From NCBI GenBank assembly GCA_945862465.1, contig CAMAYO010000006.1, positions 1-64,000 on the forward strand: a DNA stretch of 64,000 nt, written 5' to 3'. The notes under the pieces were generated by a model that did no database searches, was not told the origin of the DNA, and saw only the letters and a program-made list of their open reading frames with translations. This DNA comes from Pseudorhodobacter antarcticus (GTDB lineage Bacteria > Pseudomonadota > Alphaproteobacteria > Rhodobacterales > Rhodobacteraceae). Position numbers and translations under genes: made by a program. Positions 41,696-60,834 of this stretch are shown here, piece after piece. Positions within the stretch are counted from its first letter, which is position 1, and each line of letters begins with the position of its first letter.

Positions 41696-43015
41696 TCAGA
41701 TATCCAGCGTGTTTTCGTTTTCCCATGCCGAGAAGTGCGAGGCGTAGCTGTTCCACTCACGCGTTTTGAGCTTGATGAAGGCGGTCGAGAATTCTTCGCC
41801 CATCATCGCTTTCAGCGTCTTGTCCTTGTCGTATTCGCGCAAGGCATCCAGCAGGTTCAGCGGCAGTTTCGGGGCACCTTTCACAAGGTGGCCTTGCTGG
41901 TACATGTCGATGTCGTAACGCTTGCCCGGATCGGCATTGGTGCGCACGCCGTCAAGGCCTGCGGCGATGATCACGGCTTGCAGCAGGTATGGGTTGGCCG
42001 CGCCATCGGGCAGGCGCAGTTCAAACCGGCCCGGTCCGGGGACGCGCACCATGTGGGTGCGGTTGTTGCCTGTCCATGTCACCGTGTTGGGGGCCCAAGT
42101 GGCACCTGACGAGGTGCGCGGGGCGTTGATGCGCTTGTAGCTGTTCACGGTCGGGTTGCAGATCGCAGCCAAAGCCGAGGCGTGCTTCATGATACCGCCA
42201 AGGAACGTGCGGCCACGGTCAGACAGCGACAGTTCTTTGGACGGGTCCGAGAAGACGTTCGACTTGCCATCCAAGCTCCACACCGAGATATGGGCGTGGC
42301 AGCCCGAGCCTGTCAGCCCTTTGAACGGCTTGGGCATAAAGGTGGCGCGGTAGCCGTGCTTTTCAGCCACAGACTTCATCATGAACTTGAAGAAGCTGTG
42401 CTTGTCAGCGGTTTGCATCGCGTCGTCGTATTTCCAGTTCATCTCGAACTGGCCAATCGCGTCTTCATGGTCGTTTTGGTAGGCTTCCCAACCAAGCTCC
42501 AGCATGTAATCGCAGACTTCGGCGATCACGTCATAGCGGCGCATCACAGCTTGCTGGTCATAGCAGGGCTTTTCGGCCGTATCATAGGGGTCAGAAATCT
42601 GCGTGCCTTCGGGGTTGAGCAAGAAGAACTCAGGCTCGACCCCCGTCTTGATCCGCAGGCCTTCCTTGGCGGCTTCGCCGATCAAGCGTTCCAAGACGTT
42701 GCGCGGCGCTTGGTCGACAAGCTTGCCCTCCATCTTGGCGCGCGCTGCTACCCATGCCACATCCTTTTTCCACGGCAACTGAATGGCCGAGGACGGATCA
42801 GGTACAGCCATCAGGTCGGGATGGGCGGGGGTCAGGTCAAGCCAAGTGGCAAAGCCCGCAAAGCCTGCCCCATCGTCCACCATATCGTTGATCGCCTGTG
42901 TCGGCACCAGTTTGGCGCGCTGACCACCGAACAAGTCGGTGTAGGAGATCATGAAGTACTTAACACCGCGTTCTTTGGCCCAAGCGGCCAGATCCTTGGT
43001 CGGAGCGTGTGACAT
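41696..43015 (-). CDS. gmaS: Gamma-glutamylmethylamide synthetase GmaS (glutamine-synthetase family)
   Basis: A 439-residue GS-fold enzyme. Conserved GS features include GVEPEFFLLNPEG near residue 130, AIGQFEMNWKYDD near 190, GSGCHAHISVWSLDG near 240 and NRTHMVRVPGPGRFELRLPDGAANPYL near 340. On sequence alone it would be called type III glutamate-ammonia ligase. Its position directly after mgsABC argues for GmaS, which joins methylamine to glutamate with ATP. It is the last gene of the mgsA-mgsB-mgsC-gmaS operon and is followed by an intrinsic terminator. Confidence 0.9.
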   Translation of the reverse strand: MSHAPTKDLAAWAKERGVKYFMISYTDLFGGQRAKLVPTQAINDMVDDGAGFAGFATWLDLTPAHPDLMAVPDPSSAIQLPWKKDVAWVAARAKMEGKLVDQAPRNVLERLIGEAAKEGLRIKTGVEPEFFLLNPEGTQISDPYDTAEKPCYDQQAVMRRYDVIAEVCDYMLELGWEAYQNDHEDAIGQFEMNWKYDDAMQTADKHSFFKFMMKSVAEKHGYRATFMPKPFKGLTGSGCHAHISVWSLDGKSNVFSDPSKELSLSDRGRTFLGGIMKHASALAAICNPTVNSYKRINAPRTSSGATWAPNTVTWTGNNRTHMVRVPGPGRFELRLPDGAANPYLLQAVIIAAGLDGVRTNADPGKRYDIDMYQQGHLVKGAPKLPLNLLDALREYDKDKTLKAMMGEEFSTAFIKLKTREWNSYASHFSAWENENTLDI

Positions 43016-43042
43016 TATAGTCTCCCTGTTCGTTTTTTTTCT

Positions 43043-44371
43043 TCAAAAGCCGCCGTTACGGCCCGGTATCCAGTTTGTGCCTGCAAGGGGAACCCCGGCC
43101 ATGGCCGCGCCTTCGATCGTCAGCGCGCAAAGGTCTTCGGGTTCAAGGTTGTGCAGGTGGTTTTTGCCACAGGCGCGCGCAATCGTCTGCGCCTCTAGCG
43201 TCATGACTTTCAGATAGTTTTTCAGGCGGCGACCGCCCAGAACGGGGTCAAACCGCGCGGCCAGTTCGGGGTTTTGGGTTGTGATGCCGGCAGGGTCGCG
43301 GCCTTCGTGCCAGTCGTCGTATGCGCCGGCTGTCGTGCCGAGTTTGTTGTATTCGGCTTCAAGTGCTGGGTCGTTGTCACCCAAGGCGATCAGCGCTGCC
43401 GTGCCGATGGCCACAGCATCCGCGCCCAAAGCCATAGCCTTGGCCACATCGGCCCCCGTGCGGATACCGCCTGAGACGATCAGTTGCACTTTGCGGTGCA
43501 TCCCCAAATCTTGCAGCGCCTTAACGGCCAGTGGAATACAGGCCAAGATCGGCATACCAACGTTTTCGATGAACACGTCTTGCGTGGCCGCCGTACCGCC
43601 CTGCATCCCGTCCAGCACCACAACGTCAGCGCCAGCCTTCACAGCCAAGGCCGTGTCATAGTAGGGCCGCGCGCCACCGATTTTGATGTAGATCGGCTTT
43701 TCCCAATTGGTGATCTCGCGGATCTCCAGAATCTTGATTTCCAGATCGTCCGGACCAGTCCAATCGGGGTGGCGGCAGGCCGAGCGTTGGTCGATGCCCT
43801 TGGGCAGGTTGCGCATATTGGCCACGCGGTCAGAAATTTTCTGCCCCAGCAGCATACCACCACCACCGGGCTTAGCGCCCTGCCCCACCACAACCTCGAT
43901 CGCGTCAGCGCGGCGCAGGTCGTCGGGGTTCATGCCGTAGCGCGAGGGCAGGTATTGATAGACCAGCGACTTGGAATGGCCGCGTTCTTCTTCGGTCATC
44001 CCGCCGTCACCTGTCGTGGTAGAGGTGCCAGCCGCCGAAGCGCCGCGCCCCAAAGCCTCTTTCGCGGGGCCAGACAGCGCGCCGAATGACATCCCCGCAA
44101 TGGTGATCGGAATGTCCAGATGGATCGGGTTTTTGGCAAAGCGGGTGCCCAGCCAAACATCGGTGGCGCATTTTTCACGGTAGCCTTCCAGCGGATAGCG
44201 TGAGATTGACGCGCCCAAGAACAGCAGGTCGTCAAAATGCGGCAAGCGGCGCTTAGAGCCACCGCCACGGATGTCATAAATCCCAGTGGCGGCCGCGCGG
44301 CGGATTTCAGCGTTCACGTCGTTGGAAAAGGTCCACGACATTTTCGGCGGGGTGTGGGGAAAATCGCTCAT
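43043..44371 (-). CDS. mgsC: N-methylglutamate synthase subunit C (FMN glutamate-synthase domain)
   Basis: A 442-residue protein matching the FMN-binding and synthase domain of glutamate synthase. Visible are ITIAGMSFGALSGPAKEALGRGA near residue 100, KPGGGGMLLGQKI near 165, the FMN region KIGGARPYYDTALAVKAGADVVVLDGMQGGTAATQ near 225, and LIVSGGIRTGADVAKAMALGADAVAIGTAAL near 300. Fe-S cysteines occur in the C-terminal part. The ATG at 44369-44371 gives MSDFPHTPPKMSW; the longer frame lies inside mgsB. It uses methylamine-derived gamma-glutamylmethylamide with the two small subunits to form N-methylglutamate. Confidence 0.93.
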   Translation of the reverse strand: MSDFPHTPPKMSWTFSNDVNAEIRRAAATGIYDIRGGGSKRRLPHFDDLLFLGASISRYPLEGYREKCATDVWLGTRFAKNPIHLDIPITIAGMSFGALSGPAKEALGRGASAAGTSTTTGDGGMTEEERGHSKSLVYQYLPSRYGMNPDDLRRADAIEVVVGQGAKPGGGGMLLGQKISDRVANMRNLPKGIDQRSACRHPDWTGPDDLEIKILEIREITNWEKPIYIKIGGARPYYDTALAVKAGADVVVLDGMQGGTAATQDVFIENVGMPILACIPLAVKALQDLGMHRKVQLIVSGGIRTGADVAKAMALGADAVAIGTAALIALGDNDPALEAEYNKLGTTAGAYDDWHEGRDPAGITTQNPELAARFDPVLGGRRLKNYLKVMTLEAQTIARACGKNHLHNLEPEDLCALTIEGAAMAGVPLAGTNWIPGRNGGF

Positions 44372-44378
44372 ATCTGCC

Positions 44379-45068
44379 TCAGTACGCCGCAGCGTTGTCG
44401 ATATTGAAGTTATACAGCTTGCGGGCCGAGCCATAGCGGCGGAATTGCTCCGGCTTGGCTTTGTGATCCGCTTCGCCGCGACGCAACAGGTCTTCCAAAA
44501 GGGCGTAATGTTCGGGACGCATCTCTTTTTCGATGCAATCAGCCCCCAGCGACTTGACCTTGCCGCGCACGAAAAGCCGCGCTTCATAGAGTGAGTCGCC
44601 CAGCGCTTCGCCTGCGTCACCAAGCACGACGACCGAACCCGACTGCGCCATAAAGCACGACATATGGCCGATGTTGCCATGCACGACGATCTCGATGCCC
44701 TTCATCGAAATGCCGCAGCGCGACGAGGCGTTGCCCTTGATCACCAGCAAGCCACCGCGCCCAGTGGCACCGGCATATTGGCTGGCATCGCCGTCAATCA
44801 CAACTTTGCCCGACATCATGTTTTCAGCCACACCCGGGCCAGCCGAGCCTTTGATAAAGATCGAGGCTTGCTTGTTCATACCCGCGCAATAGTAGCCGGT
44901 TGATCCGCGCACAGTGATTTCCACCGGCGCATCAACGCCCGCAGCGATGGCATGCGCTCCCTTGGGGTTGATAACTTCCCAAGCCGTCATGTTGGTCTGG
45001 CCTTTGAGCGCGTGCAAGGAAGAGTTCAAGGCACGCAGGCCGTCTTTGGACAGATCGAAAGTCTGCAT
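44379..45068 (-). CDS. mgsB: N-methylglutamate synthase subunit B (GXGXG domain)
   Basis: A 229-residue protein equal to the C-terminal GXGXG beta-helix of glutamate synthase. The repeated turns are visible as GSTGYYCAGMNKQASIFIKGSAGPGVAENMMSG, then GRGGLLVIKGNASSRCGISMKG and GNIGHMSCFMAQSGSVVVLGDAGEALGDS. It has no catalytic residues of its own and supports the channel between the amidotransferase and synthase sites. It lies 3 bp after mgsA and 7 bp before mgsC. Confidence 0.93.
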   Translation of the reverse strand: MQTFDLSKDGLRALNSSLHALKGQTNMTAWEVINPKGAHAIAAGVDAPVEITVRGSTGYYCAGMNKQASIFIKGSAGPGVAENMMSGKVVIDGDASQYAGATGRGGLLVIKGNASSRCGISMKGIEIVVHGNIGHMSCFMAQSGSVVVLGDAGEALGDSLYEARLFVRGKVKSLGADCIEKEMRPEHYALLEDLLRRGEADHKAKPEQFRRYGSARKLYNFNIDNAAAY

Positions 45069-45071
45069 TCC

Positions 45072-45968
45072 TTAACGCTCCCAGAAGTAAACAGTGGCGG
45101 GTTCCGGCTCCCAGATGCGGGCGGTTTCGATGCCGGGCAGGTTCACCAAGGCGCGGTATTCGCTGCCAAAGGCGACGTATTGGTCAGTTTCAGCCATCAC
45201 AGCGGGCTTGCAAGCGATGGGGTCACGCACCACGCCAAAGCCGTTCTTGGTGCCGACAACAAAGGTAAAAAAGCCGTCCAGATCGGTCAGGGTCGCCTCC
45301 AGCGCATGGCCCAAAGTGTCACCGCTTTGCAGCTTGTGGCTGATGAAGGCAGCGCCGACTTCAGTGTCGTTTTCGGTTTCAAACGTCATGCCAAGTCGCT
45401 TCAGCTCGCGCCGGACGCCGTTGTGGTTGGATAGCGAGCCGTTGTGCACCAAGCATTGATCGTTGCCGGTCGAGAACGGGTGTGCGCCCATCGTCGTCAC
45501 AGCTGATTCTGTCGCCATGCGGGTGTGGCCGATGCCATGCGTGCCGCCCATTTTGGCGATGCCAAAGCGGGCTGCCACGTCTTTGGGAAGGCCCACTTCC
45601 TTGAAAATCTCGATGCCTTCGCCGGCGCTCATCACTTTGACCTCGGGGCGCAGATGCGTCAGGGCAGAGCGTGCAGCTTCCAACTGAGCCACTGGCACTT
45701 CCAATACGGCATGAGTGTCTTTGATCAACATCAGCACGGGCGTGCCGATGGCGTCCTTAAGATCCGCATCCAAATTGGCAAAATCGCGCCCGGGATGGGC
45801 CGATTGCACCGTCAGTTTGGCGCGGCCTTCGCCAGCGCCTGAATAAATAGCGATGCCTGCCGAATCGGGGCCACGATCGGTCATAGTGACCAGCATATCC
45901 GCCAGCATTGCGCCTAATTTCGGCTCAAGGCTTGCGTCCTTTAGGAACAGCCCAACGATACCACACAT
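45072..45968 (-). CDS. mgsA: N-methylglutamate synthase subunit A (class II glutamine amidotransferase)
   Basis: A 298-residue Ntn-type amidotransferase. The nucleophile is Cys2 in MCGIVGLFLKD, which needs removal of the first Met. The loop GIGHTRMATESAVTTMGAHPFSTG near residue 145 and VHNGSLSNHNGVRREL near 175 bind glutamine in this family; here the amide is probably gamma-glutamylmethylamide. It is the first gene of the mgsABC-gmaS operon. The 246-bp divergent region before it holds repeated AGGAAACT-like elements. Confidence 0.93.
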   Translation of the reverse strand: MCGIVGLFLKDASLEPKLGAMLADMLVTMTDRGPDSAGIAIYSGAGEGRAKLTVQSAHPGRDFANLDADLKDAIGTPVLMLIKDTHAVLEVPVAQLEAARSALTHLRPEVKVMSAGEGIEIFKEVGLPKDVAARFGIAKMGGTHGIGHTRMATESAVTTMGAHPFSTGNDQCLVHNGSLSNHNGVRRELKRLGMTFETENDTEVGAAFISHKLQSGDTLGHALEATLTDLDGFFTFVVGTKNGFGVVRDPIACKPAVMAETDQYVAFGSEYRALVNLPGIETARIWEPEPATVYFWER

Positions 45969-46150: not shown

Positions 46151-46222
46151 ATGTCGGCAAAGGAAACGGGCACCAAGGCCAGCCCGCCCGACAAAAGGCC
46201 AAAGGGAGGGAAAAATGTCTGA
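46151..46222 (+). CDS. Possible 23-residue leader peptide
   Basis: ATG at 46151 opens a 23-codon frame (MSAKETGTKASPPDKRPKGG then KNV) that ends with TGA 46220-46222, overlapping the start of the next gene at 46215. Its last codons contain the AAAGGGAGGG ribosome-binding sequence of that gene. An A-rich stretch precedes it, but no clear ribosome-binding site. It is lysine- and proline-rich and has no recognised homologue. It could couple translation to the transporter operon or be chance. Confidence 0.25.
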   Translation: MSAKETGTKASPPDKRPKGGKNV

Positions 46223-46502
46223 TCTAAATGCTAGGATCGAGGCCATGCACAAGGGTGACATCCGTGTCGCTTGGGCTTTTGTGCTGGGCCTGTGGTTCTC
46301 GATTATCTTTGTGGCCTTGGCCACATGGAACCTTGCGCCCAACGGCACGGCACGGGTGCTGTTGCTGATTGCGGGGGCTGTGATCTTGGTGTTCAACACA
46401 GCCGCCATCTTGGCCATGTTGCGCCATTACCGCGAGGACCGCGATTTCATGTATGGGCTGGACATCAAGTTTCTTGATGAAGCCCGCGCGGCGCGGAGGT
46501 AA
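46215..46502 (+). CDS. Small two-helix membrane protein, transporter operon
   Basis: A 95-residue protein with two hydrophobic helices at about 19-41 (WAFVLGLWFSIIFVALATW) and 50-72 (ARVLLLIAGAVILVFNTAAI). A charged N-terminus and a charged tail (RHYREDRDFMYGLDIKFLDE) flank them. The ribosome-binding sequence AAAGGGAGGG is strong. It is the first of four tightly packed genes ending in an APC permease. I recognise no family. A role as accessory subunit of the permease is inferred from position. Confidence 0.8.
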   Translation: MSDLNARIEAMHKGDIRVAWAFVLGLWFSIIFVALATWNLAPNGTARVLLLIAGAVILVFNTAAILAMLRHYREDRDFMYGLDIKFLDEARAARR

Positions 46503-46504
46503 TC

Positions 46505-46882
46505 ATGGCCCATTATGTAGCGCCCAAACAGGGCAAACTGAGCCAGTTGTTCGACGTCGTCGTGCTGATGGCGCTGACCTTCGGCGCGCTGTACATCCCG
46601 ATGTTTCTAGGGCTGGCTGGGGGCGTCAAGACCGTTCCCGAAGGTGCTGGCCAAACATGGGAAGCGATGGGCCAGAACGCGGCGCAAATCGCGCAGTATA
46701 ACGCCCTTGGCTTCACCGACCCCGCCGCCGTTTCCGATATCATCAATGCCCGCTACGATTACAGTTTTTCCATGACGGCCCTGCTGGTTATGGTCGTGAT
46801 TATCGTGGCCTACTACGTGCTGATGTTGAAATTCTCTGAAACCGAATACCGCGAAGTGATCGCGGAAAAATTCGATAAGTGA
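46505..46882 (+). CDS. Small membrane protein, transporter operon
   Basis: A 125-residue protein with hydrophobic helices at about 17-38 (DVVVLMALTFGALYIPMFLG) and 90-111 (MTALLVMVVIIVAYYVLMLK). A periplasmic-size loop of about 50 residues lies between them (KTVPEGAGQTWEAMGQNAAQIAQYNALGFTD in two parts), and the tail is charged. It starts 2 bp after the previous gene. I do not recognise a family. Confidence 0.8.
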   Translation: MAHYVAPKQGKLSQLFDVVVLMALTFGALYIPMFLGLAGGVKTVPEGAGQTWEAMGQNAAQIAQYNALGFTDPAAVSDIINARYDYSFSMTALLVMVVIIVAYYVLMLKFSETEYREVIAEKFDK

Positions 46883-46889
46883 GGGCGCG

Positions 46890-47066
46890 ATGAGCATCTG
46901 GAATTACGCAGAATATGCGGCCTGGGCCCTGTCGGCGGTCTTTGGCCTGTACATGGTGATTGACTGGCTGAAAACGGATTCGACCTATTCGGAAGAGGTT
47001 CTCACCTCGTCTCGTGAGGGCGAGTTGGAAGCTATGACCGAAGCACAAGGAGGTCATCATGGCTGA
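46890..47066 (+). CDS. Small single-helix membrane protein, transporter operon
   Basis: A 58-residue frame starting MSIWNYAEYAAWALSAVFGL, with one helix at about 5-26, then an acidic tail (DSTYSEEVLTSSREGELEAM) and GGHHG at the end. The stop TGA (47064-47066) overlaps the start of the permease gene by 8 bp, and the AGGAGG before that permease lies inside this frame. The tight packing, proper start and single helix support a real gene, although it is short. Confidence 0.7.
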   Translation: MSIWNYAEYAAWALSAVFGLYMVIDWLKTDSTYSEEVLTSSREGELEAMTEAQGGHHG

Positions 47067-48498
47067 TTTTGACATCGCCTCGAAAGAGCGCGACGGCATG
47101 GGGCCGCATGGCACCAATGTCGGCTTGCTGCGCGTGCTGGGGCCGGCCCATGTGTGGGCTTTGGGCGTGGGCATCGTGCTTGTGGGCGAATATATGGGCT
47201 GGAATTTTGCCGTCGGCAAAGGCGGGGCTTACGCCGCACTGGTGGCCTGCTGGTTTGCGGGCATTCTTTACACCTGCGTGGCCATGATCGATTCCGAAGT
47301 CACCTCGACCGTGGCTGCGGCGGGCGGTCAGTATACCCAAGCCAAGCATATCGTGGGTCCGCTGATGGCCTTTAACGTCGGCCTCTATCTGGTCTTTGCC
47401 TATACGATGTTGGAAGCCGCAAATGCCATCACGGCGGGCTATCTGATTTCCGAAGTGGCGCGATTGTCGGGCTTTGAAGGCACACTGGATCAACGCCCCT
47501 TCATCATCTTGTCGATCATGTTCTTGGCATGGCTGAACTATCGCGGGGTTCTGGCGACGCTGACCTTTAACTTGGTCATCACCGCCATCGCCTTCACCGC
47601 CATCATCATCTTGTTCTTGTCCACCACGGGCATCGTTGGCACGTCGATCATGCAACACGCTGACCTGATGTCTGGCTCTGCCGCCCTGCCTTATGGCTGG
47701 ATCGGCGTTTTGGCGGCCATGCACTTTGGTCTGTGGTACTATCTGGGCATCGAAGGCACGACCCAAGCGGCGGAAGAAGTCCGCTCTCCGGCCCGCGCGC
47801 TGCCCTTTGGCACGCTGGCTGGCATCATGACCCTGCTGATCGCGGCGACGCTGACATGGTACGTCTGCACCGGCCTGATCCCGTGGGAGTTCTTGGGCGA
47901 TGGCTTGAATGGCTCGGTCGCCCCCTTGTTCACCGCAGCCTTGCTGACCAACTCGCAGCCCTTGGTTTGGTTGCTGGGCGTGGGCACGCTGTTTGCCACG
48001 CTGGCTTCGGCCAACGGTTGTATCAACGACGCCTCGCGGGCCTGGTTTTCCCTGGGCCGCGACAAGTATCTGCCGGGCTGGTTCGGGGCTGTGCACCCCA
48101 CCTTCCGCACGCCTTACCGCTCTATCGTGTTCTTGGTGCCCATTGCGCTGGCTTTCGCGCTGAAAGCACCGCTGGATCAAGTGGTGACATTCTCGATCCT
48201 GTCGGGCCTGTTGAATTACACCTTCATGCCGCTGAACATGATCATGTTCCGCAAGAAATGGCCTATGGGGTCGATCACACGCGGGTACGAACATCCGTTC
48301 CACCCGCTGCCCTCGATCGTGCTCTTGTTGCTGTGTGCTATCACCTTCTTTGCGGTGTTCTTGGGCTATGGCACGCAACTGGTGGCGATGATCGCCTTCT
48401 ACATCGTGGCCTCGCTGTGGTTCCACTTCTGGCGCTACCGCTTCGTGAACCGCGCCTCGCAGTTCACGATGCCTTGGCCCCGGCCCAAAGGCTACTAA
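47059..48498 (+). CDS. APC-superfamily amine/amino-acid permease
   Basis: A 479-residue membrane protein with about twelve helices. The start of the transport core is HVWALGVGIVLVGEYMGWNFAVGKGG near residue 31, and the family loop after helix 6 reads YYLGIEGTTQAAEEVRSPARALPFGT near residue 230. This resembles ethanolamine permeases. Strong AGGAGG precedes the ATG. It diverges from mgsABC-gmaS, so methylamine, dimethylamine or a glutamate-linked amine is the likely cargo. The three small membrane proteins directly upstream are unusual for an APC permease. An intrinsic terminator follows. Confidence 0.88.
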   Translation: MADFDIASKERDGMGPHGTNVGLLRVLGPAHVWALGVGIVLVGEYMGWNFAVGKGGAYAALVACWFAGILYTCVAMIDSEVTSTVAAAGGQYTQAKHIVGPLMAFNVGLYLVFAYTMLEAANAITAGYLISEVARLSGFEGTLDQRPFIILSIMFLAWLNYRGVLATLTFNLVITAIAFTAIIILFLSTTGIVGTSIMQHADLMSGSAALPYGWIGVLAAMHFGLWYYLGIEGTTQAAEEVRSPARALPFGTLAGIMTLLIAATLTWYVCTGLIPWEFLGDGLNGSVAPLFTAALLTNSQPLVWLLGVGTLFATLASANGCINDASRAWFSLGRDKYLPGWFGAVHPTFRTPYRSIVFLVPIALAFALKAPLDQVVTFSILSGLLNYTFMPLNMIMFRKKWPMGSITRGYEHPFHPLPSIVLLLLCAITFFAVFLGYGTQLVAMIAFYIVASLWFHFWRYRFVNRASQFTMPWPRPKGY

Positions 48499-48507
48499 CC
48501 CAAATCC

Positions 48508-48541
48508 CCGGCCCGCTTGAAAAAGCGGGCCGGTTCTTCTT
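48508..48541 (+). terminator. Intrinsic terminator of the transporter operon
   Basis: CCGGCCCGCTT and AAGCGGGCCGG form an 11-bp stem around GAAA, followed by TTCTTCTT. It lies 10 bp after the permease stop and separates it from the next plus-strand genes. Confidence 0.9.
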
Positions 48542-48554
48542 GAAAGGCGCCTAA

Positions 48555-49226
48555 ATGTCCAAGCTGATCACCCTGCTTATCGCACTTGGACTTGGGCTCT
48601 GGCTGGCACAAACCTTGGTGCAAATCCTGCGTGCCGCGCGAGGGCGGGCCGCATCGCGCGCCAACTACTTCGCTGCCGCCTCAAACTTTCTGGTGGACAT
48701 CCAACGCCAAATTCAACCAACAGGTTTCGCCCGCATCGCCGGCCTCTACGACGGGCTGCGCTTTGACCTGCAAGCCCTGCCCGATACCCTGACCTTTCGC
48801 AAACTGCCCGCACTTTGGGTGATGGTCACCGTCACCGAACCCCAAACGACAAGCGGCGAGGTGCATATCATGGCGCGCGCCAATGGGCAGGAAAGCTTTT
48901 CCACCCATGCGCGAATGCCCGTATCAGTGCACCTTCCCCCGGGCTTTCCGCCCGATTGCACCCTGCGCTGCACCGACCCTGCCGCTTTGCCAGCGCCCGA
49001 AGTGTTGGCGATGATTGCCCCCCTGTTCAGCGACCCCAAGGTCAAAGAGGCCGTTCTCTCGCCCAAAGGCATCCGACTTGTGGTTCTGGCAGAAGAGGGC
49101 GACCGCGCCAATTATCTGATCTTCCGTGACGCCGAACTGGGCCGCACGCCCTTTGCCTCGCAGCGCTTGCACCATCTGCTGACCACGCTCGCCGATCTTC
49201 ACGCAGCCCAAAAGGCCCATCCATGA
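48555..49226 (+). CDS. Membrane-anchored protein of unknown function
   Basis: A 223-residue protein with one N-terminal hydrophobic helix (residues 3-24, LITLLIALGLGLWLAQTLVQIL) and a soluble domain. The soluble part has features such as GLYDGLRFDLQALPDTLTFRKLP and LFSDPKVKEAVLSPKGIRLVVLAEEGDRANYLIFRDAELG. I do not recognise a family. The next gene overlaps it by 4 bp. The pair lies between the transporter operon and the XRE-cupin gene. A link with methylamine use is possible but not shown. Confidence 0.75.
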   Translation: MSKLITLLIALGLGLWLAQTLVQILRAARGRAASRANYFAAASNFLVDIQRQIQPTGFARIAGLYDGLRFDLQALPDTLTFRKLPALWVMVTVTEPQTTSGEVHIMARANGQESFSTHARMPVSVHLPPGFPPDCTLRCTDPAALPAPEVLAMIAPLFSDPKVKEAVLSPKGIRLVVLAEEGDRANYLIFRDAELGRTPFASQRLHHLLTTLADLHAAQKAHP

Positions 49227-49486
49227 AAAAACCGCCTCATCCCTATTTGGTTCTGGCCGTATCCCTGATCTTGCCCGGTTGTGGCCAAGTGCTGAACCGC
49301 CAACCGATGCGTGGGTTGATGTTTTTGTTCTTCACAGCCCTTTTGGGCGCGCTTACCGCCATCACGGCACCGCCCACAGCCTCGCTCATCGGGCATTTGG
49401 CGGGGGGGCTGTTTGTTTATGCGCTGTCGATCCCCGACGCTTACCGCACGGCCCGCTTGCGGTGGACGATTTACGCCAAGGGCTAA
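49223..49486 (+). CDS. Small membrane protein of unknown function
   Basis: An 87-residue protein with two hydrophobic stretches, about residues 8-22 and 31-50, and a third weaker one near 55-70. The N-terminal VSLILPGCGQVLNRQPMRGL resembles the start of small TM2/DUF5683-like membrane proteins (PGxGQ motif). It overlaps the previous gene by 4 bp (ATGA), so they are co-translated. It converges on the XRE-cupin gene. Confidence 0.7.
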   Translation: MKKPPHPYLVLAVSLILPGCGQVLNRQPMRGLMFLFFTALLGALTAITAPPTASLIGHLAGGLFVYALSIPDAYRTARLRWTIYAKG

Positions 49487-49494
49487 AGCCCGCG

Positions 49495-50151
49495 TTACCC
49501 CTGCGGGTAAGCGATGACCGACAGATATTTCGCGGGAAGTTTGTTCAACACTTCCGGCCCATGGCGCGCATCCGCGTCAAAGAACAGGCTGTCACCGGGC
49601 TTTAGGTGAAACAGTTTGTCGCCGTGGCGATAGGTGACTTCGCCTTCCAGCATATAAAGCAATTCCAGCCCTTCATGTTGAAAGGTCGGGAAAATGTCAG
49701 CCTCGGTCGACAGCGTGATCAAATAGGGCTCCACCACAACGCCCGAATTGTTCGACCCGATATGGCCCAAAAGGTTGTACTGATGCCCAGACCGCGTGCC
49801 GCGCCGCTCTACCTCGATATGGTCGCCCGCTTGCACGTGCTGCACCTCGCGGCGTTCTTCGTAAGATTTGAAAAACGCGGTGACGGGCACGGAGAAGGCG
49901 TGGCTTAAGACCTGCAACGTGGTCAACGAGGGCGAGGTGATGCCATTTTCGATCTTGGACAGCATCCCGATCGACAGGCCCGTCACCTGCGCCAGATCAG
50001 CCACCGTTAACCCCTGCTGGCGGCGAAAGGCGCGCACCTCGCGGCCAATGGCGGCCTCTAGGTTGCGCTCTGATATGTCGCGCACCTTGTGCGGGTCTTG
50101 GCTAAGCGCGGGCTTGCCGCGCGGCACGAAAGCTTGGGCGTCGTCGGTCAT
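49495..50151 (-). CDS. XRE-family regulator with C-terminal cupin
   Basis: A 218-residue regulator. The N-terminal helix-turn-helix is VRAFRRQQGLTVADLAQVTGLSIGMLSKIENG then ITSPSLTTLQVLSHAFSV (residues 35-90), and the C-terminal cupin has FPTFQHEGLELLYMLEGEVTYRHGD (about 145-170). Members of this type sense small amines, amino acids or sugars and include polyamine and betaine regulators. I chose the ATG at 50149-50151 (AAAGGA upstream). It follows mgdD by 67 bp in the same direction. It is a good candidate regulator of the methylamine genes. Confidence 0.9.
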   Translation of the reverse strand: MTDDAQAFVPRGKPALSQDPHKVRDISERNLEAAIGREVRAFRRQQGLTVADLAQVTGLSIGMLSKIENGITSPSLTTLQVLSHAFSVPVTAFFKSYEERREVQHVQAGDHIEVERRGTRSGHQYNLLGHIGSNNSGVVVEPYLITLSTEADIFPTFQHEGLELLYMLEGEVTYRHGDKLFHLKPGDSLFFDADARHGPEVLNKLPAKYLSVIAYPQG

Positions 50152-50203
50152 TGAGGCGTCCTTTGAGATCGCTTTGTTCACTATAGGTAAAAAAGATCAC
50201 TTA

Positions 50204-58706: not shown

Positions 58707-58756
58707 TTTTTCGCAGAAAAATCGTGGCCAAGGCGTCGATTTTTCTGCAAGAAATC
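58705..58756. repeat. Paired inverted repeat element, family 1 (copy 4)
   Basis: One perfect hairpin, GATTTTTCGCAGAAAAATC (58705-58723), is followed by a degraded one, GATTTTTCTGCAAGAAATC (58738-58756), in opposite polarity. The element overlaps the EamA stop at one end and the stop of the GlxA-type gene at the other. It lies between convergent genes, like copy 3. Confidence 0.72.
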
Positions 58757-59753
58757 ACATCTCAGGCGGCATAGCCCCCGACAATCCTCGCAATCCCGCC
58801 AAAGCTTTGCGCTCATTCTGCGGGCTAACGCCAAAGGCTTGCGCATAATGTCGCGCCATGGGGCCTGATCTGGGGTAGCCCACGGAAGCTGCAATCTCGG
58901 CCAAGGAATCATCAGAATACAGCACCCTTTGCCGCGCCTTGGCCAAGCGCACCAAGCGGTAATAGCGCAGCGGGCTTTGGCCCGTTTCTCGCTTGAACAG
59001 GCGTTCAAAGTTGCGCTCTGACATCTCAACCGCGCCCGCCACATCTGGGATGCGCAACGGGTCTTCGATATGCGCGTCAAACAGGCGGATCGCCTCACGG
59101 ATCGGTTGGGGCAAGGCATCGGCTGTGCCACCTGCGCCTTGCACCGGCACCTTTTGGCGGGCATCTTCATCGCGCACAAAGGGGTGCTGAAACCAGCAGG
59201 CGACTTCGGTCATCGTCTCGCGGCCCAAGCGTTCTTCGATCAGGCGCAGCATCAGGTCAAACACTGCCCCCGCGCCCGAAGCCGTGATGCGCCGCCGGTC
59301 GCGCACGATCACGGTTTCTTCGGCAGAGACTTGGGCAAACTCGGCCTTAAAGGCCGTCTCGTAGCACCAATGCACCGAACAGCGGTGGCCTTCCATCAAC
59401 CCCGCCCGCACCAAGGGAAAGATGCCACCGGAAAAGGCCCCGATCGTGACACCAGCCCGGTCAAGGCGGCGCAGCACGGCGGGGGTGTGCTTGGGGTCAA
59501 GAAAAGCACCTGTGGGCGGCGACAGAAGGTAGACTTGGTCCAACCCCTGCGCCTGATCCAGCACATCGTCGGGCGTAAAGCGCACCTCGGCAGACGATCG
59601 CACGGGTTCTGACGTCTCACCCAAAAGCACCCAAGAAAAGGCGCGTGTGCCCGTGATTTCGTTGGCAGCCCGCAAAGGCTCGATGGCCGAAGTCAGGCAG
59701 GCCATCGGAAACCCTTGGAACATCAAGAACCCAAGGTGCAAAGGCTTGGTCAT
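58755..59753 (-). CDS. GlxA-family regulator (DJ-1/PfpI-like domain plus AraC HTH)
   Basis: A 332-residue regulator. The N-terminal DJ-1/PfpI-like domain (about 5-180) starts LHLGFLMFQGFPMACLTSAIEPLRAAN and has FSGGIFPLVRAGLMEGHRCSVHWCYETAF. The C-terminal AraC domain (about 225-315) has VEMSERNFERLFKRETGQSPLRYYRLVRLAKARQ. It resembles GbdR-type regulators of betaine and dimethylglycine use. The ATG at 59751-59753 lies 10 bp after the last dmm gene, so it is probably co-transcribed with dmm and may activate it. No good ribosome-binding site is seen. Confidence 0.88.
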   Translation of the reverse strand: MTKPLHLGFLMFQGFPMACLTSAIEPLRAANEITGTRAFSWVLLGETSEPVRSSAEVRFTPDDVLDQAQGLDQVYLLSPPTGAFLDPKHTPAVLRRLDRAGVTIGAFSGGIFPLVRAGLMEGHRCSVHWCYETAFKAEFAQVSAEETVIVRDRRRITASGAGAVFDLMLRLIEERLGRETMTEVACWFQHPFVRDEDARQKVPVQGAGGTADALPQPIREAIRLFDAHIEDPLRIPDVAGAVEMSERNFERLFKRETGQSPLRYYRLVRLAKARQRVLYSDDSLAEIAASVGYPRSGPMARHYAQAFGVSPQNERKALAGLRGLSGAMPPEM

Positions 59754-59763
59754 TTTGCGCGCG

Positions 59764-60834
59764 TCATTCCGGTGTTGGCCACCACCCGGGCGAGGTTGGC
59801 TTGCCATCGTCATATTTCGCCAACCATTCCACCATGGCGGGTTGGTTGCGGGCGAAACCCTTGTAGGCCGCAATGTCAGGGTGAATGTCGCGCAGCACAC
59901 GGTGCAAACGGCGGCCCCATTTGGGCATGGTCACCAGTTCTTCGAACTTGCCCAGATAGGCGCGGATCGAAAAGGCGATGGCATTGGAACGCGGCAGTCG
60001 GAACAGCGCCTGCAATTCCACGCGCAGGTGCTGCTTTGACCCAAGGTTATCTTGCGTCAGCGAGGCCTTGGTGGGGCCCCATTTGGGATAGGTTTCAGGC
60101 GCTGTGTCCAACAACGGGTTCACCGTCATCGTCCAGTTGAACCGCCGCACCGGAGAGCCGTTTTGCAGCTTCAGCAAGAACTTCAGCGCACGGTCAAAGA
60201 CCTGCTTTTCATGGGCCAAAGGCACAGGCGCGTGCCATTCCATAAAGTTCATACCCACATCAAAATCTAGCGACCAATCGGCTTGGGTCGTGATCATGCC
60301 GGCATCCATCCACAGGTTGCCATCGCGTTCGTCTTGCAACGAAAAGTCACCCTGAGTTTGGCGGGTGATGTATTCCATCGGGCCGTAAGGCAGGGTCGAC
60401 TCGTCAAGGAAGGTGAACTTGTGGTCGATCCCCAAGGGCCGGTTGATCCAGTGCCACTGGTTGCCGTTCTTGTGCAGCGAAAACCACTGCGGATAATCCC
60501 GCGCGTTGCTGTCCATGATCAGTTCCAGCAAATCCCAGCCCGCCAAGGTCATATGGGGCAGGCTTTGGCAGCGCAGCGGGTCTTCGGCCAGCACCTTGGC
60601 GCGGTCGATCATTTCGCTGACGTAATGCTCATCGACATCAAAGGTCTTTTCAAAGACCGATCCGGGGCGGCCGGATATGTGCGGCTCCATATTGACCGAA
60701 TACATGTAGTCGTCTCGGTCAAACGGAAAGGGAAAGCGCGCGATGGCGGCGGGAGAGTTCTTAAAGGTGAAATCGTCGCGAAACGTCTCATCCTTGAAGA
60801 AATCGCCAAGTTCGGGTTTGAAATCCAGGCTCAT
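59764..60834 (-). CDS. dmmC: Dimethylamine monooxygenase heme subunit (DUF3445/HODM family)
   Basis: A 356-residue protein of the heme-dependent oxidative N-demethylase family. Recognisable parts are RFPFPFDRDDYMYSVNMEPH at the N-terminus, DLLELIMDSNARDYPQWF near residue 103, NLWMDAGMITTQADWSLDFDVGMNFMEWHAPVP near 170-205 and RSNAIAFSIRAYLGKFEEL near 285. It should carry the oxygen-activating heme that converts dimethylamine to methylamine and formaldehyde. GGAGG precedes the ATG. Lettering follows gene order dmmD-A-B-C and may differ from published names. Confidence 0.88.
   Translation of the reverse strand: MSLDFKPELGDFFKDETFRDDFTFKNSPAAIARFPFPFDRDDYMYSVNMEPHISGRPGSVFEKTFDVDEHYVSEMIDRAKVLAEDPLRCQSLPHMTLAGWDLLELIMDSNARDYPQWFSLHKNGNQWHWINRPLGIDHKFTFLDESTLPYGPMEYITRQTQGDFSLQDERDGNLWMDAGMITTQADWSLDFDVGMNFMEWHAPVPLAHEKQVFDRALKFLLKLQNGSPVRRFNWTMTVNPLLDTAPETYPKWGPTKASLTQDNLGSKQHLRVELQALFRLPRSNAIAFSIRAYLGKFEELVTMPKWGRRLHRVLRDIHPDIAAYKGFARNQPAMVEWLAKYDDGKPTSPGWWPTPE

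Follow-up and report, generated by a model that had tools for sequence, protein, structure and literature searches.

Bacterial APC permeases are usually regarded as single-protein carriers, and the question raised here is whether one of them, encoded beside genes of methylamine catabolism, may instead belong to a larger membrane unit. The locus lies in a stretch of 64,000 nucleotides of Pseudorhodobacter antarcticus DNA (contig CAMAYO010000006.1 of assembly GCA_945862465.1, positions 1 to 64,000; hereafter the window), whose plus strand carries, between positions 46215 and 48498, four open reading frames (ORFs) of 95, 125, 58 and 479 amino acids (aa). The first three are called here smallA (46215-46502), smallB (46505-46882) and smallC (46890-47066), with products A, B and C; the fourth (47059-48498) encodes the permease. 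A sequence-only reading of the window had described four packed genes, had taken A, B and C for dedicated small partners of the permease in a possible multi-subunit transporter and had named methylamine or a related amine as the possible cargo. That observation is right and understated: the linkage is stronger and the unit is larger, comprising six membrane proteins, with orf223 (48555-49226) and orf87 (49223-49486) following the permease gene on the same strand.

The packing is as described, with gaps of 2 bp between smallA and smallB and 7 bp between smallB and smallC, and an overlap of 8 bp between smallC and the permease gene. The permease itself belongs to the APC superfamily, matching Pfam AA_permease_2 over residues 36-436 with 103.7 bits against a cut-off of 27 (E 1.5e-29), and its sequence is strongly conserved along the whole length.

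Linkage of the six genes across genomes

Orthologous loci were collected with the permease alone as query, and the small genes were thus not selected for. The sources were genome contigs (the best 80 of 352 stretches, 74 after removal of duplicates), further genomes and plasmid records; when permeases with identical last 250 residues were counted once, 162 orthologous hits gave 117 distinct permeases of 62-100% identity. Gene presence was tallied by tblastn in the 98 loci with 1600 or more nucleotides (nt) of upstream sequence and in the 94 with 2600 nt or more of downstream sequence; neighbouring genes were recorded in 81, whose flanks were 5 kb or longer on both sides and mostly 6 to 9 kb. 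The locus sequences are related, and the counts are not independent events.

We found smallA and smallB upstream of the permease gene in all 98 testable loci and smallC in 97, the smallC of the remaining one (L112, Paraburkholderia) being recognised when read in translation. Downstream, orf223 and orf87 were present in 94 of 94 testable loci, and gene order and strand were identical in all 110 complete six-gene sets. Partners encoded with every carrier orthologue, as expected of a multi-subunit carrier, are therefore what the loci with enough flank contain. By comparison, A, B and C were absent upstream of 16 distant APC permeases (22-29% identity), each with at least 900 nt but less than 1600 nt of upstream sequence; among the matches listed, outside which most of the weaker plasmid matches lie, no permease fell between about 30% and 62% identity. 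Profile scans of whole genomes gave the same picture: among 385 alphaproteobacterial genomes the smallB profile matched 6, the same 6 that carry the permease, and among 61 relatives the smallA profile matched 14, exactly those with a permease orthologue. The sequence-only reading had suggested looking for its four-gene order in other genomes and had treated absence of the small genes beside orthologous permeases as fatal to it; the order does recur and A, B and C are missing from none of the 98 loci, while the number of dedicated partners rises from three to five.

Against seven relatives, the ratio of nonsynonymous to synonymous substitution rates (dN/dS) was 0.05-0.26 for smallA, 0.05-0.33 for smallB, 0.06-0.24 for smallC, 0.03-0.14 for the permease, 0.10-0.24 for orf87 and 0.20-0.52 for orf223. 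The three small genes are thus under purifying selection, which, together with their presence in 98 of 98 loci, excludes an origin as chance ORFs.

The module spreads over several alphaproteobacterial orders, one Paraburkholderia plasmid and one genome of another class (G977, 1.9 Mb), in which all six genes are present. Named carriers include pAMI6 of Paracoccus aminophilus (strain JCM 7686), on which the module adjoins mgsABC-gmaS, pSR1 of Aminobacter sp. SR38 and pSymB of Sinorhizobium meliloti. Its frequency differs between groups, the permease being found in 16 of the 17 genomes of one other alphaproteobacterial order (that of genome G073), as against 12 of the 295 sampled Rhodobacteraceae. 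We also observed a universal-stress-protein gene between the permease gene and orf223 in four loci (L115, L143, L151 and L170) and after orf87 in a fifth (L152), as though it were a facultative part of the module.

The small proteins A, B and C

A and B each have two hydrophobic helices, those of B flanking a loop of about 50 residues, and C has a single weak hydrophobic segment. The earlier description of one- or two-helix proteins therefore holds for A and B, whereas the weak stretch of C stays below 1.5 on the Kyte-Doolittle scale. In the AlphaFold2 model of B (predicted local distance difference test score, pLDDT, 82.9; predicted template modelling score, pTM, 0.40), the helices span residues 11-34 and 90-123, and two further short helices lie in the loop. 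Judging from the charges, this loop would face the periplasm, and the C-terminal tails of all three proteins would be cytoplasmic. It is in these tails that invariant residues are most numerous, with six in A (residues 69-95), six in B (109-125) and three in C (28-51, a region in which some alignment rows of C are shortened); conserved motifs are HYxxDxxFxYGLDIKxLD in A, SxxEYREVIAEKF in B and LTSSREGE in C.

The sequence-only reading could not place the three proteins in a family, and profile scans gave no Pfam or NCBIfam match above the cut-off for any of them. Comparison of 24 aligned homologues each of A and B with Pfam yielded single-member matches only (E 0.002-0.01), A and B had no convincing match among PDB sequences, and the model of B had none in the PDB by Foldseek. 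A search of the open-access literature turned up no description of these small proteins, which is not to claim that none exists.

orf223, orf87 and the hairpin preceding them

The product of orf223 has an N-terminal membrane helix followed by a domain that matches no Pfam family and that, from its charges, would lie on the cytoplasmic side. Its AlphaFold2 model is of high overall confidence (pLDDT 93.8). Using VIA-align, we found the closest among the listed folds to be 7tm3_4 (Z 12.0; 199 residues aligned, root mean square deviation 4.2), TtfA in 6t84 (Z 11.7; 150 residues, 3.0), 9i78_4 (Z 10.1) and 6w6l_7 (Z 9.5). These four, all of the TtfA/CCDC47-like fold, are set apart from the next entries, type III secretion chaperones with Z of 7.3 and less; the chaperone folds (Z about 7) were considered and taken as background. 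A Foldseek search with the model returned nothing below E 0.001, the best entry again being 7tm3_4 (7.7e-3), and a profile of orf223 matched no PDB sequence up to E 10. Entry 9I78 is described as containing CCDC47 (PMC12572126), and residue ranges indicate that the translocon chains of 7tm3 and 6w6l would be CCDC47 as well. Both named proteins assist other membrane proteins: CCDC47 and its partner Asterix are reported to make up the PAT complex, which chaperones multipass proteins (PMC12572126), and TtfA is reported to be membrane-anchored with a cytoplasmic C terminus and to be required for MmpL3 transport (PMC6593404).

The orf87 product is a small membrane protein with a partial, sub-threshold match to DUF5683. 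Between distant loci it is 49-63% identical, and its invariant residues include P18, G21, R30 and a DAY motif at 72-74. Comparison of distance matrices showed that orf223 and orf87 are nearest each other (r 0.91).

The gap between the permease gene and orf223 (48499-48554) contains a terminator-like hairpin at 48508-48533, with 11 pairs, nine of them G-C, and a T-rich tail. It has the longest stem of the seven terminator-like sites found between 45900 and 49700, where shuffled sequences gave a mean of 4.8. The hairpin is also recurrent: among 104 homologous gaps of 25-300 nt, 72 contain a stem of at least 7 bp, against 2.9 expected from mononucleotide shuffles, and 41 of these 72 have at least four T in the next 10 bases. 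The sequence-only reading had ended the unit here at a strong terminator, and the hairpin is indeed present, but the conserved unit continues beyond it with orf223 and orf87 in 94 of 94 testable loci. Since 31 of the 72 gaps with a hairpin lack the four T, the structure may tune expression instead of ending the operon; we infer a partial terminator or a processing hairpin that would set orf223 and orf87 at a different expression level.

Gene context and probable cargo

On the minus strand, divergent from the module as the earlier reading had noted, lie gmaS and mgsCBA of the N-methylglutamate pathway (41696-45968). Genes of the window were named by homology to annotated genes of pAMI6 and pSymB and by Pfam, and gmaS, mgsCBA and the other names are putative assignments. 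Around the 81 modules with flanks of 5 kb or more on either side we found gmaS in 59 cases and mgsA, mgsB and mgsC in 58 each, and at least one of gmaS, mgsC and mgsA adjoined 59 of them. Other genes of amine catabolism were less frequent: mgd-type soxB occurred near 30 modules, tmm near 16, the dmm reductase gene (dmm2) near 14, dmmC (dmm1) near 11 and Tdm-like genes near 6, and an APC permease of the type linked to dmm genes on pAMI6 near 14.

At the thresholds used, 17 of the 81 modules had no catabolic gene nearby. Fifteen of the 16 genomes behind these loci nevertheless have mgsC elsewhere (68-94% identity), and in one of the 17 (L170, from G977) mgd-like and gmaS-like genes are present below threshold, with mgsC on the same contig. 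Among 295 Rhodobacteraceae genomes, that of the window included, 12 have a permease orthologue (a thirteenth match, a distant APC protein, was excluded), 107 have mgsC (E 1e-100 or better) and 11 have both, an association with p 8e-5, or 2e-5 when only the 94 closer mgsC matches, counted by eye, are used. Many genomes with mgsC thus lack the module (107 against 12), so that the pathway does not generally require it. Both the neighbouring genes and the gene content of the genomes support the proposal of methylamine or a related amine, and because the N-methylglutamate pathway is the common denominator of module loci and genomes, monomethylamine would be the likeliest cargo.

In three loci of the order of G073 (L142, L143 and L152), where the module stands apart from amine catabolic genes, another AA_permease_2 protein of 559-601 aa is encoded at a distance of a few kb at most; L142 and L143 also have a gene for a LuxR-type response regulator nearby.

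A second APC permease and TmoP

A DUF1989-GcvT (Tdm-like) gene in the window prompted the first idea that the module permease was TmoP, the permease for trimethylamine N-oxide (TMAO), an idea that was dropped as the leading reading. TmoP of Methylocella silvestris is an APC permease, presumably Msil_3606. In the published material, tmoP appears in a figure legend, and a dmmD-like gene is Msil_3605 and dmmABC are Msil_3607-3609 (PMC5520151). The comparison was made with a positional proxy for Msil_3606, the 579-aa APC protein encoded beside dmmDABC on pAMI6, which is likely the TmoP counterpart by position. TmoP and the module permease have in common that they are APC permeases linked to methylated-amine catabolism, but the proxy hardly aligns with the module permease (23% identity over 145 columns, E 0.005), and the module permease lies about 11 kb from the dmm genes, not directly beside them. 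A second APC gene, at contig positions 63820-65490, overlaps the end of the window and reaches the end of the contig; its product is 71% identical to the dmm-linked APC protein of pAMI6, it adjoins dmm genes (dmmD-like) and it relates to loci L187 and L190. Since this homologue adjoins dmm genes here, TMAO or trimethylamine may have a carrier of its own in the genome of the window.

Two further observations concern these genes. Contig C89 of the same genome carries a tmm homologue and a fragment of another permease of the pAMI6 dmm-linked type. Beside the dmm genes of the window, at 58755-59900, lies a GlxA/AraC-type regulator gene whose product shares 30% identity with a GlxA-type regulator of pAMI6 and is possibly a counterpart of TmaR, the R. 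pomeroyi protein described as master regulator of trimethylamine catabolism (PMC13390433).

Proposed mechanism and alternatives

We propose, with a probability of about 0.5, that the six proteins form an inner-membrane module that would import a small methylated amine. Monomethylamine is the likeliest candidate; A, B and C would be obligate subunits, and orf223 and orf87 would act in assembly or regulation. The permease would bind the amine and move it across the inner membrane, while A, B and C would pack through their helices around it as accessory subunits, their tails, if cytoplasmic as the charges indicate, stabilising or gating the carrier. The anchored orf223 protein, with its TtfA/CCDC47-like domain, and orf87 would be a second pair, with a part in assembling or regulating the complex; the hairpin that follows the permease gene probably keeps their expression below that of the carrier. 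The six-gene linkage, which has no exception in the testable loci, is best explained by a multi-subunit carrier, but for orf223 and orf87 a carrier that works alone with dedicated assembly factors is almost as good an account, and such a role is conceivable for A, B and C too.

Several observations weigh against this proposal. Constant linkage equally fits proteins that are co-regulated and never in contact. The distance matrices of A, B and C track that of the permease (r 0.93, 0.87 and 0.87), yet the controls mgsC (0.88) and mgsA (0.87) correlate equally, and the mirror-tree test therefore does not discriminate. Conservation moments of the helices are weak, the three best being reached by 88, 95 and 100 of 2000 shuffles and the other two by 692 and 819. 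Two genomes with the permease, G1052 and G036 (79% complete), gave no mgsC in the scans, and of the 22 modules without adjacent gmaS or mgs genes, those scanned for mgsC were 16, the rest being L113, a plasmid record, and five that have other amine genes close by. The module did not turn up in R. pomeroyi, a user of methylated amines, although no search by that name was made. Ammonium transporters, moreover, carry methylamine too. In Pseudomonas, a gmaS-mgsABC-amt operon is described as containing a methylamine transporter, which is an amt product (PMC8292978). A separate methylamine importer is, on these two grounds, not strictly needed.

The alternative with most in its favour, which we nonetheless consider doubtful, is that the permease works alone and that all five partners are factors of biogenesis, stability or quality control outside the working transporter. 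The resemblance of orf223 to CCDC47 and TtfA, helpers of other membrane proteins, points in this direction, as do the closeness of the orf223 and orf87 distance matrices and the different expression level that the hairpin suggests; a common fold, however, shows no function, and the close packing of A, B and C on the 5' side of the permease gene (2 and 7 bp apart, then overlapping by 8 bp) would be commoner for stoichiometric subunits than for catalytic helpers. The module might also be as proposed but carry dimethylamine, trimethylamine, TMAO or a wide variety of methylated amines, which we think unlikely. Consistent with such a cargo are the tmm, dmm2, dmm1 and Tdm-like genes found near 16, 14, 11 and 6 of the 81 modules, and DmmC is encoded in 32 of 52 module genomes. 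The other 20, however, lack DmmC at E 1e-50, including 15 of 16 in the order of G073 as well as G977 (G002, G479, G427 and G107 being less than 90% complete), and the pAMI6 dmm-linked APC protein, to which the module permease is so distant, has its 71% homologue adjoining dmm genes in this very genome.

That the permease-like protein, with the tails and orf223, is a sensor or transceptor reporting external amine to regulators appears improbable. One such regulator could be the XRE-cupin protein encoded convergently at 49495-50181 on the minus strand, a homologue of which lies near 41 of the 81 modules; the conserved tails of A, B and C, the universal-stress-protein gene that lies within the module or directly behind it in the five loci named above, and the precedent of GerAB, described as a permease-like subunit of three-part spore germinant receptors, speak in the same sense. 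On the other hand, Pfam scans of the six proteins found no kinase, receiver or nucleotide-binding domain, and the permease is strongly conserved throughout its sequence. Most improbable of all is an unrelated membrane function of small ORFs that are only co-transcribed with the permease: co-occurrence is all-or-none across the 98 loci and both profile scans of whole genomes, and the gene order is common to distant groups.

Significance and comparison with known systems

The mode of methylamine uptake has been called unclear for pelagic Methylophilaceae (PMC6794327). More generally, the methylamine carrier of bacteria with the N-methylglutamate pathway is poorly defined, and the six-gene module provides a concrete candidate. 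As a fixed module that goes with the pathway in distant groups, it also brings at least three unnamed families of small proteins into view, in hosts that can be cultured (Paracoccus aminophilus, Sinorhizobium). What looks new is an APC permease with dedicated, co-encoded accessory membrane proteins, its five partners belonging to no established family.

Partial parallels exist among carriers of the LeuT fold. The sodium:solute symporters ActP and MctP are co-encoded with a small membrane protein (DUF485 and DUF3311, respectively), but they belong to another carrier family and have one partner instead of five; the Pfam families of such partners (DUF485, DUF4212, DUF3311 and similar ones) were matched neither by A, B and C nor by the 24 homologues each of A and B. 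Heteromeric amino acid transporters of the SLC7/SLC3 type likewise combine a LeuT-fold carrier with a dedicated single-helix partner, although SLC3 proteins have a large extracellular domain, whereas A, B and C are of small size, with their best-conserved regions predicted to lie in the cytoplasm. The closest curated model of the permease is the ethanolamine permease, TIGR00908, also for a small cationic amine; at 176.1 bits, the module permease stays below the equivalog cut-off of 381.75.

Spore germinant receptors (GerAA-GerAB-GerAC), as described, contain an APC-superfamily permease-like subunit inside a multi-protein membrane complex; they are receptors in spores with other partner families, and the likeness is one of description. 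TtfA (PDB 6T84) shares with orf223 its topology, an N-terminal helix followed by a domain, and the predicted fold at Z 11.7, but no sequence relation to orf223 was found among PDB sequences, and the carriers are of different families. The solved chains nearest to the permease by profile are those of GkApcT (6f34 and 5oqt, E about 1e-21), followed by CAT, xCT and LAT chains. In the GkApcT structure (5OQT/6F34) a small single-helix membrane protein, MgtS, is packed on transmembrane helix 5, and the authors liken it to the heavy subunits of heteromeric transporters (PMC5803215). MgtS is described as an Escherichia coli protein from the expression host, whereas the small proteins of the module are co-encoded in every testable locus, so that GkApcT-MgtS would be a precedent, in structural terms, for a helix packed against an APC carrier and not for a co-encoded set. 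In its boldest form, which we put forward tentatively, our proposal would make the permease with A, B and C an APC amine importer of at least four membrane proteins, with orf223 and orf87 as its co-encoded assembly pair. It would then be an importer dedicated to monomethylamine that is not of the ammonium-transporter family and, with a membrane chaperone of its own, a bacterial counterpart to the heteromeric amino acid transporters.

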